Assembly: GCA_028696075.1 (NCBI GenBank)
Contig: JAQVHS010000004.1
Coordinates: 19,603-83,602 of the forward strand
Direction: 5' to 3'
From: Candidatus Gastranaerophilales bacterium
GTDB lineage: Bacteria > Cyanobacteriota > Vampirovibrionia > Gastranaerophilales > JAILCC01
Length of the DNA stretch: 64,000 bases
Below are positions 9,636 to 21,154 of the stretch, one piece after another. The position numbers and the translations under genes are program-made. Within the stretch, counting starts at the first letter, position 1; each line of letters opens with the position of its first letter. Below the pieces are notes generated by a model that worked only from the letters and a program-made list of their open reading frames with translations, made no database searches and had not been told where the DNA came from.

Positions 9636-9737
9636 GCTATTCCCCTCTTATCTGTAATCGTCTTTTTCATTTTATTACAAATATAGACAGGAAGGAATAA
9701 ACCACTAACGGTTATCGGAGCAAAGTTACTTTTTACT

Positions 9738-10158
9738 GTCATTGCGAAAAAATACGAAGCATTTTGAGGCAATCTATTGATAAGGTGGTGTTTTACAAGA
9801 CATTGACCTGGATTGCTTCACTTACGTTCGCAAAGACGGTTCTCGTCATTGCGAAAAATGCGAAGCATTTTGTGGCAATCTATTGATAAGGTGGCGTTTT
9901 ACAAGACATTGACCTGGATTGCTTCACTTACGTTCGCAAAGACGGTTCTTGTCATTGCGAAAAAATGCGAAGCATTTTGTGGCAATCTATTGATAAGGTG
10001 GCGTTTTACAAGACATTGACCTGGATTGCTTCACTTACGTTCGCAAAGACGGTTCTTGTCATTGCGAAAAATGCGTAAGCATTTTGTGGCAATCTATTGA
10101 TAAAGTGGTGTTTTACAAGACATTGACCTGGATTGCTTCACTTACGTTCGTAAAGACA
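9738..10158. repeat. Four tandem copies of a ~107-bp palindromic element
   Basis: Copies begin at 9738, 9845, 9951 and 10058 and differ by only a few bases. Each opens with GTCATTGCGAA and closes with TTCGCAAAGAC, its near-perfect reverse complement. Inside are AATGCGAAGCATT and a GCAATC/GATTGC pair, so a single-stranded copy would fold into a long hairpin. The array fills most of the 578-base gap between the aminotransferase and the 10214 gene, and reading frames inside it are not genes. Related cores recur at 49.6-50.1 and 52.4-52.8 kb. Confidence 0.9.
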
Positions 10159-10213
10159 GCGAAAAATAACTCTTCACCTATTCACTAACCGCTAAGGGTA
10201 ATAGATATTAAAC

Positions 10214-11086
10214 TTAACCCAATTTGCCAAGCAAATCAGTGCAATTTTCCAAAAGAACATTCGCAAGGTCTTTAGGGTCAATCATAGTTACAACTTGTTG
10301 GATTAATTGAGGCGGCAAACCTTGTGCAATATTGACAAGAAGCTCTTTATCAAGCGCTGCCATACCCTGAATCATATCGCCTTTTAGAGATTTTTCAAAA
10401 CATTCTGATAATCTGTCAGTGGGTATTTCTTTAAACAGTTCAGGCTGCTCTTTTAATAAATGGGCTGATAATCCTACTAAATGCTTTTTGGGAAGACTTT
10501 GAATAGCTTCCAGGAATTTTTCGGGCTTAAGAGCTTCGATTTGTTTAAGCATATCCGATTTATTGCTGGTGTTCATTCTTTGCCCTGTAGCTTCTTCGTA
10601 CATTTTATTCAATTCTTGGGGATTTAGCTGTTTTAAATATTCCATTACGTTCTTTTTTTCAATTTTATCGCTGGCTAAGAATCTTTTAAGCGTGGCTTCG
10701 GGAAGCATTTCCATAATTTGCTTGTTTGTATACATGTTCTTTAGAACTTTAATCATTTCTTCTTGAGGAATAGAGCCTAAAATCTTTGCCAACTTTTCCT
10801 TTGTGAAAAATTTCATGCCAAGAAGAAGATGTTTTTTTTGTAAAAGCTTTAACAAATAGCTGACATCACTGCTTTTCATCATTTTAATGAGCTGATATCT
10901 TACTTTGGGGTCATTTAAGTTCAAATCTTTAACTAATTGTGAAGAATTATAATTGGATTTCTCATAAAACTTAGCAGCACCGCTTTTTTTAGATTTGCCG
11001 CTTTTTGAAGTCCTGCCAGCTTGTTGACTAGTCAACAAGTGCGCATACTGCGTTAGAAGTTCTACATCAATATCCATATTAACCAT
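10214..11086 (-). CDS. Helical-repeat protein (MgtE-N/FliG-like), sigma-28 regulated
   Basis: The 290-residue protein has no signal peptide or membrane span. After a Ser/Lys-rich linker (residues ~20-45) it is all helical, with repeating units such as TKEKLAKILGSIPQEEMIKV, PEKFLEAIQSLPKKHLVGLS and DKELLVNIAQGLPPQLIQQV. The spacing of L-x-x-IP/LP turns resembles the MgtE N-terminal / FliG superhelix, so a protein-interaction scaffold is likely. This is a resemblance, not an assignment. The ATG at 11086 is chosen because GGTGG precedes it. A perfect sigma-28 promoter lies 34 bases upstream, which implies a late flagellar or chemotaxis role. Confidence 0.75.
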   Translation of the reverse strand: MVNMDIDVELLTQYAHLLTSQQAGRTSKSGKSKKSGAAKFYEKSNYNSSQLVKDLNLNDPKVRYQLIKMMKSSDVSYLLKLLQKKHLLLGMKFFTKEKLAKILGSIPQEEMIKVLKNMYTNKQIMEMLPEATLKRFLASDKIEKKNVMEYLKQLNPQELNKMYEEATGQRMNTSNKSDMLKQIEALKPEKFLEAIQSLPKKHLVGLSAHLLKEQPELFKEIPTDRLSECFEKSLKGDMIQGMAALDKELLVNIAQGLPPQLIQQVVTMIDPKDLANVLLENCTDLLGKLG

Positions 11087-11119
11087 TTTCGACCACCAAG
11101 TTTAATATCTGTATTACTT

Positions 11120-11146
11120 TTATCGGCATTTTTACTTAAAACTTTA
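11120..11146 (-). promoter_or_regulatory. Perfect FliA/sigma-28 promoter
   Basis: Read on the minus strand, TAAAGTTT (11146-11139), an 11-base spacer and GCCGATAA (11127-11120) reproduce the enterobacterial sigma-28 consensus exactly. Transcription would start near 11112, about 25 bases before the ATG of the helical-repeat gene. Confidence 0.85.
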
Positions 11147-11274: not shown

Positions 11275-11706
11275 ATGAACGCAATAAGTTTCAACGCACA
11301 TACCCCGCTTTCCCAAAATGACATTACAAGATTGCCAAACCAGGCTTCTGCGGCAATAGCAGCTCCTGCAGCTGCAGTTACCCAGTCAGGGGATTACTAT
11401 GGCGAACCCAAAAAAATGAGCGGCTTAACTAAGACTATTATCGCTTTAGCTGTGGCAGCCGGAGCATTAGTTACTTTAAAAAGGACTAATTTACTAAAAG
11501 TTGCGCCGGATGCAACAGGTACAATGAGTAAAATTAAAGGTTATGCAGCTAAAGCAGCTGATTATGTAGAATATCCTTTTGTAAAAGCTTATAAGTTTGT
11601 GAAGGGCTTGTTCGGCAAAAACGCCGATGATGTAGCAAAAGCAGCTGATAATGTAACACCACCACCGGCAGCAGTAACACCACCACCTGCAGCGGTAACA
11701 CCATAA
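11275..11706 (+). CDS. Orphan single-span membrane protein with PPPAAVT repeats
   Basis: The 143-residue protein is not recognised. It starts with MNAISFNAHTPLS, then a disordered Ala/Pro stretch, one hydrophobic span at about 54-68 (TIIALAVAAGALVTL) followed by KRTN, a basic amphipathic region (YAAKAADYVEYPFVKAYKFV), and a C-terminal tail of two PPPAAVT repeats encoded by a 21-base DNA repeat. There is no signal peptide. A strong TGGAGG precedes the ATG, and it has its own promoter and terminator. The layout resembles the protein at 156. Confidence 0.75.
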   Translation: MNAISFNAHTPLSQNDITRLPNQASAAIAAPAAAVTQSGDYYGEPKKMSGLTKTIIALAVAAGALVTLKRTNLLKVAPDATGTMSKIKGYAAKAADYVEYPFVKAYKFVKGLFGKNADDVAKAADNVTPPPAAVTPPPAAVTP

Positions 11707-20749: not shown

Positions 20750-21154
20750 ATGACACATATCGGACCCGAATACGTTAATCCCAATTCAGTAAATTTTATC
20801 AAAAACGACTCCAAAACAGAAACAAACAAACCTGCTAAAGAAAAAGAAGAGGTTAAAAGCAGCAGTGTCGAAAGCAAAAATATTCCTGCTGATGAAATCC
20901 TGAATCATTTGGCGCATGCCAGCTTAATTGCACAAATGAACATTAAACCTAAAAAAACTATTGACGTTAATCAATACAACGATGAAGCAGCAAAAGAAAG
21001 AATAGGGAACCTTATGGCAGGCTTTGAAGCACAAGTTTTAAAAGGGCTTGGTGCATTCGAAAAAGAAATGGGTAATATGCCGCTGTATCAAAACCTGAGT
21101 GAAAGCGCAAAACTCGAATTGGCAGCTAATTTATTCAGCGCCGATAATATGTAA
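20750..21154 (+). CDS. Unknown small protein under sigma-28 control
   Basis: The 134-residue, soluble, acidic protein has no recognised family. Residues 1-50 are charged and probably disordered (TNKPAKEKEEVKSSSVESKN). Residues 50-134 are predicted helical (EILNHLAHASLIAQMNIK, then RIGNLMAGFEAQVLKGLGAF and LSESAKLELAANLFSADNM). AAGGAG before the ATG is strong, the promoter is a perfect sigma-28 site, and a clean terminator follows, so it is a monocistronic late flagellar-class gene. A flagellar chaperone, an anti-sigma factor (FlgM role) or a chemotaxis accessory are options, but no FlgM motif is visible. Confidence 0.8.
   Translation: MTHIGPEYVNPNSVNFIKNDSKTETNKPAKEKEEVKSSSVESKNIPADEILNHLAHASLIAQMNIKPKKTIDVNQYNDEAAKERIGNLMAGFEAQVLKGLGAFEKEMGNMPLYQNLSESAKLELAANLFSADNM

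Follow-up and report, generated by a model that had tools for sequence, protein, structure and literature searches.

A sigma-28-type promoter precedes the gene of an order-specific MgtE_N-type solenoid protein in some flagellated and aflagellate Candidatus Gastranaerophilales

Introduction

Which process is served by a soluble helical-repeat protein whose gene stands behind a promoter of the flagellar sigma-28 type, in a bacterial order in which, according to Soo et al. (2014, PMC4040986), most of the members available at that time lacked complete sets of flagellar genes? The question is raised by a 64,000-nt stretch of a Candidatus Gastranaerophilales genome (hereafter the window), for which an initial annotation had proposed that such a protein, made together with the filament genes, may be a motor, brake or chemotaxis component.

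Results

A sigma-28-type promoter upstream of the 290-aa gene

The following elements of the window define the locus and its regulon:

10214-11086, minus strand: gene of a 290-aa cytoplasmic helical-repeat protein of an order-specific family with MgtE_N-type repeats (ORF and Pfam)
11093-11097, minus strand: probable Shine-Dalgarno sequence GGTGG, 6 nt 5' of the ATG, by sequence reading
11120-11146, minus strand: sigma-28 (FliA) type promoter, exact match to TAAAGTTT-N11-GCCGATAA
20685-20711, plus strand: second exact sigma-28 promoter present in the window, part of the same regulon

The promoter claimed ahead of the 290-residue ORF is indeed present, with 33 nt between the end of GCCGATAA and the ATG, a spacing compatible with a transcription start about 25 nt upstream. 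Two exact copies of the element occur in the window versus none in 100 dinucleotide shuffles, and the 1.84-Mb genome holds only three exact N11 copies, the reversed control pattern giving none. Because these counts exceed both shuffles and control, the promoter of the 290-aa gene is, by sequence statistics, real and of the sigma-28 type, and we infer that FliA uses this and the other sigma-28 sites; a FliA-type sigma factor is encoded in the same genome (TIGR02479 over cut-off at G000:C11:45474). Allowing one mismatch, eight sites were found in the genome, including one upstream of a flagellin gene (C5:9922), which bears out promoter control shared with a flagellin gene, whereas at three mismatches the counts are those of the background (83 in all versus 101 for the control). 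That the site is a chance match, reflecting nothing beyond an AT-rich background, is extremely improbable and was discarded on the basis of the shuffles, with none expected, and of the conservation of its position across families.

Around the two promoters, a 143-aa ORF (window 11275-11706) diverges from the 290-aa gene and is conserved in family f1, and a 134-aa ORF (20750-21154) follows the second exact promoter, both being devoid of Pfam matches. Just 3' of the 290-aa gene (9737-10182) lies a 126-nt repeat in four copies, with a spacing of about 107 nt and 78-97% identity to the first copy.

Conservation of the promoter was assessed in the 140 bp upstream of 89 orthologues, accepting at most two mismatches to TAAAGTTT-N11/12-GCCGWTAA. 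A site was found upstream of 24 of the 89, versus 0.1 expected (kinship ignored in these counts), distributed as 3/3 in family f1, 3/3 in f7 and 18/59 in aflagellate members of f2. Within the same limits, no recognisable site preceded the gene in any of the 11 flagellated members of f2, nor in f3, f4 or f5. Further genera of f2 carry drifted versions, such as TGAATTTT-N12-GCCGTTAA, with the distance unchanged. Slightly 5' of the promoter, f2 orthologues also share conserved GTTAACAAA/GTTACAAA repeats, possibly a regulator site.

In twelve aflagellate genomes, sites deviating by no more than one mismatch numbered about 100, compared to about 15 for the reversed control. Most of them are located 20-50 nt upstream of ORFs belonging to recurrent families. 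These families comprise the MgtE_N protein itself, HD-domain-like proteins about 420 aa long, proteins measuring 490-1000 aa, large proteins starting with MGMAAxQARxLxIT, and small proteins. The recurrent uncharacterised families are candidate export substrates. The largest one accounts for 34 sites and starts with MG[LM][AS]AxQxRxLxxTxR (loci such as L268, L226, L254 and L072).

The 290-aa protein is a soluble MgtE_N/ARM-type solenoid

Pfam MgtE_N (PF03448) matched the 290-aa protein over two stretches (E=2.8e-8; 34.6 bits versus a curated cut-off of 25.9), and the domain was found in 38 of the 40 orthologues tested (E<=0.01). The regions recognised are:

10262-10528, minus strand: C-terminal MgtE_N domain match, residues 187-275 (PF03448, profile positions 2-91 of 102)
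10688-10894, minus strand: another stretch of MgtE-like repeats with a weaker match, residues 65-133 (TIGR00400, E=1.8e-4, below the equivalog cut-off; two Pfam MgtE_N stretches)
10973-11044, minus strand: predicted disordered N-terminal linker, residues 15-38 (pLDDT below 50)

An AlphaFold2 model built with 40 orthologues is an all-helical solenoid of short helices, none longer than 14 residues, with a mean pLDDT of 84.8 and values above 90 in the body. In many orthologues the linker region reads S-V-x-E-I-x-E-A-E-A-A-x-G-N. Neither a transmembrane or hydrophobic segment nor a signal peptide or long coiled coil was found in the protein, and its Pfam and NCBIfam matches include the N domain only, with no CBS or transport domain.

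The superhelical repeats of MgtE_N type that the initial annotation had described are therefore present by Pfam and in the model, whereas of the likeness to "FliG/MgtE" only the MgtE_N half holds. Profile-profile comparison of the family with 15 FliG proteins of the same order was marginal (57% probability, in the N/middle region of FliG), and the protein matched neither the Pfam FliG family nor FliG_C, the only FliG_C match of the genome being a different gene (G000:C3); orthology to FliG was rejected because the profile similarity is weak. The fold likeness to FliG or MgtE found no counterpart among solved structures: Foldseek searches of the PDB with the model gave no match at E<=0.001 (MgtE appeared at E=4.7, TM 0.12), FliG was absent among the PDB matches listed, and a sequence search of solved structures returned nothing significant. 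The protein is a soluble MgtE_N/ARM-type solenoid and not an orthologue of FliG, MgtE or MotE/FlgY.

The gene is conserved throughout the order irrespective of flagella

Of 97 relatives within the order, 89 carry an orthologue, in nearly every case a single one. In a sample of the phylum, the gene was present in 102/108 members of the order and in 0/5 other members of the class; outside the class this sample contained no orthologue, merely weak matches to short stretches resembling true MgtE. A scan of genome contigs with a relative's protein matched Candidatus Gastranaerophilales MAGs, and the same scan with the window's own protein gave no match. The gene belongs to the single-copy core of Candidatus Gastranaerophilales and is specific to this order.

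FliG was found in only 32 of the 97 genomes. Genomes were considered aflagellate when they lacked both FliG_C and a flagellar-type FlhA, two criteria that coincide in 30 genomes and disagree in three, of which two are incomplete assemblies. Among genomes at least 90% complete, 59/63 FliG-negative and 23/24 FliG-positive ones carry the 290-aa gene (Fisher test; p=1), so that the gene is equally frequent with and without FliG, and the co-occurrence with flagella that a motor, brake or chemotaxis role implied was not observed. A FliA-type sigma factor exceeded the cut-off in 93/97 genomes, the remaining ones being incomplete assemblies.

No neighbour or operon partner was conserved across the 89 loci. 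The gene adjoins fliA or lies within about 8 kb of it in four genomes (G021, G087, G088 and G083). At the fliA locus of the window's genome (L304:4888-7053), the neighbours of fliA encode a conserved protein of 183 aa, which adjoins fliA in G021 as well, and a 222-aa protein that reads like the PilZ/YcgR type.

A second, FliG-less flagellar-type export gene set

Two full-length FlhA paralogues were distinguished in the order, one essentially restricted to flagellated (FliG) genomes and the other present in practically all. FliP follows the same pattern: practically every genome has a second FliP, and 96/97 have at least one. In the window's genome and in the aflagellate genomes G018, G004, G028, G038, G049, G057 and G066, the second flhA belongs to a conserved fliE-fliF-X-fliH-flhA gene order, fliE being included where found, and Pfam searches supported FliE, FliF and FliH in both genomes tested:

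L292:4957-10725 (G000:C6, window's genome) and L294:4659-10637 (aflagellate G018): fliE2-fliF2-X-fliH2-flhA2, the second export locus, which lacks FliG
L292:6977-7933 and orthologues (alignment A2): protein X, which occupies the fliG position (all-helical model, pLDDT 85)

A separate cluster, also found in aflagellate genomes, encodes a FliMN_C protein followed by FliO-FliP2-FliQ2-FliR2 (L360:7464-11429; L359:8025-11910). The flagellar set (FlhA1, FlhB, FliR, FliQ and FliP; FliF1, FliG and FliH1) occupies other loci of the window's genome, its names being assigned in part by sequence reading. In gene content, aflagellate members thus possess a FliG-less export apparatus of flagellar type, and flagellated members both sets. 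As the second set coexists with a full flagellar set in flagellated members, it is not simply a decayed flagellum. Exact sigma-28 sites are enriched within 12 kb of flhA2 (9 versus 1.4 expected; p=2e-5, kinship ignored). FlgF/FlgG/FlgB/FlgC-like rod genes and the gene of an SLT transglycosylase lie ahead of the flhA2 locus in the window's genome.

Protein X was found in 107/108 members of the order and, weakly, in 4/5 other members of the class; it could be assigned to no known family, and showed no Pfam FliG match, no similarity to FliG and no PDB fold match. Homology between the 290-aa protein and protein X was considered and rejected, since hhalign revealed no profile similarity between the two families. 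Some genomes encode a second, shorter copy of the N-terminal part of protein X.

Discussion

Relatives without flagella keep the protein, its promoter and the second export machine, and for this reason a role in secretion is more likely than one in swimming. Tentatively, and with confidence somewhat short of even, we propose that the 290-aa protein is a cytoplasmic MgtE_N/ARM-type adaptor or chaperone of a sigma-28-controlled, non-rotary type III export system, with which it would physically work. RNA polymerase carrying the FliA-type sigma-28 would transcribe the gene along with the late-class products of the second, flagellum-independent exporter, and the solenoid would act on the cytoplasmic side of this apparatus, either holding export substrates as an adaptor or chaperone or, alternatively, bridging the MS ring, the FliMN-like C-ring and the cytoplasmic domain of FlhA. 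Such a role would be comparable to that of FliG-type ARM domains or of a gatekeeper, outside any rotary motor.

In support of this proposal, FliA is order-wide, the promoter is conserved in three families, 18 of the 24 sites belong to aflagellate f2 members, and MgtE_N/ARM-like domains are in use at the flagellar base in FliG and in FlgY/FlbB/MotE (PMC13023049). Against it count the lack of conserved linkage between the gene and the second apparatus, five near-complete genomes that lack the gene and keep flhA2, the 4/5 other genomes of the class with a weak protein X homologue and 0/5 with the 290-aa gene, the unrecognisable promoter in f3, f4 and f5, and the absent profile similarity to protein X. 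The co-occurrence of gene, FliA and apparatus within the order is uninformative, because all three are near-universal in it. A broader claim, doubtful at this stage, is that Gastranaerophilales, flagellated or not, own an undescribed FliG-less, non-rotary secretion system under sigma-28 control, with the 290-aa solenoid as its dedicated cytoplasmic adaptor or gatekeeper and a new class of export component.

The nearest alternative to an adaptor, itself rather unlikely, is that the second apparatus exports the protein itself as a late substrate, which may then contribute to an extracellular structure. The sigma-28 class of flagella consists mainly of late substrates and chaperones, most other ORFs behind the sites resemble substrates rather than machinery, the N terminus is unstructured, and another family of the regulon shares a Y-S/T-x-E-E-I motif. 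In contrast, the solenoid is compact and conserved and its gene belongs to the single-copy core, whereas the families of the regulon are variable and multi-copy; moreover, the usual place of MgtE_N domains is the cytoplasm or the base of the motor. The motif, as Y-S/T-x-E-E-I/L, recurs among the MgtE_N orthologues at about residues 25-45 of the query family and in the other family at L199, L202, L220 and L226; its sharing may be due to chance.

Third comes a housekeeping cytoplasmic scaffold, related for instance to magnesium or to the envelope, with no tie to secretion and with a promoter recruited by FliA in some lineages; we consider this unlikely. An order-wide core gene without conserved partners, whose promoter is absent or drifted in many lineages, would agree with it, as would the MgtE_N domain, best known from a Mg2+ transporter. 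However, a promoter that occurs in three families, f1 and f7 among them, and persists in aflagellate genomes is what an ancestral member of the regulon would be expected to show, and no CBS or transport domain accompanies the repeats. The N-terminal cytosolic domain of MgtE resembles the protein through the Pfam MgtE_N match above cut-off, whereas the 290-aa protein is free-standing and soluble, with two repeat regions and neither CBS nor membrane transporter domains, its match to NCBIfam mgtE being far below cut-off.

A component of the flagellar motor, a brake or a chemotaxis protein is very improbable. The E-ring proteins FlgY, FlbB and MotE are membrane-anchored and periplasmic. Their MgtE_N domains, which lie beside flagellar motors and form an ARM-like superhelix in a flagellar/export context, resemble the ARM-like motifs of FliG (PMC13023049), and this precedent, the weak profile similarity to FliG and the flagellin gene behind the same promoter of the same genome speak for such a role. 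Nevertheless, the gene is as frequent without flagella, and its promoter is kept in many aflagellate members and absent in the flagellated ones of f2 (0/11), the phylogenetic profile and promoter pattern on which we ruled the role out. In addition, the 290-aa protein is soluble and lacks the signal or transmembrane segment and long coiled coil of FlgY/FlbB/MotE, and it occurs in aflagellate bacteria. With FliG it shares helical ARM/MgtE_N-like repeats and the N/middle profile similarity, but not the FliG_C torque domain, a Pfam FliG match or a PDB fold match, and it is present where flagella are not.

In these gut-dwelling, non-photosynthetic cyanobacteria, sigma-28 control appears to persist where flagella do not, which points to a role in secretion. 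An order-wide marker gene, together with the second export gene set, offers a handle on the secretions of common, mostly uncultured gut bacteria, and the findings bear on the non-rotary reuse of flagellar export machinery.

In the open-licence papers searched, we found no description of a second, FliG-less export set that spans an order and combines a fliG-position protein of its own with a sigma-28 regulon, nor anything relevant on type III systems of Melainabacteria. Soo et al. (2014, PMC4040986) interpreted the partial sets of flagellar genes in this same order as loss. Among the nearest precedents is Chlamydia, which is non-motile and keeps sigma-28 and the flagellar-type export proteins FliF, FlhA and FliI (PMC2830194, PMC10597470). 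Unlike Gastranaerophilales, Chlamydia also has an injectisome, whereas the second set of Gastranaerophilales is fuller (FliE/F/H, FliMN, FliO/P/Q/R and FlhA), order-wide, and provided with its own protein at the fliG position. In many genomes of the order, FHIPEP further has a third match, about 490 aa long and resembling the cytoplasmic domain of FlhA alone (L300:1889-3370), which in G009 is found next to FliJ-like, FliK-like and hook genes.
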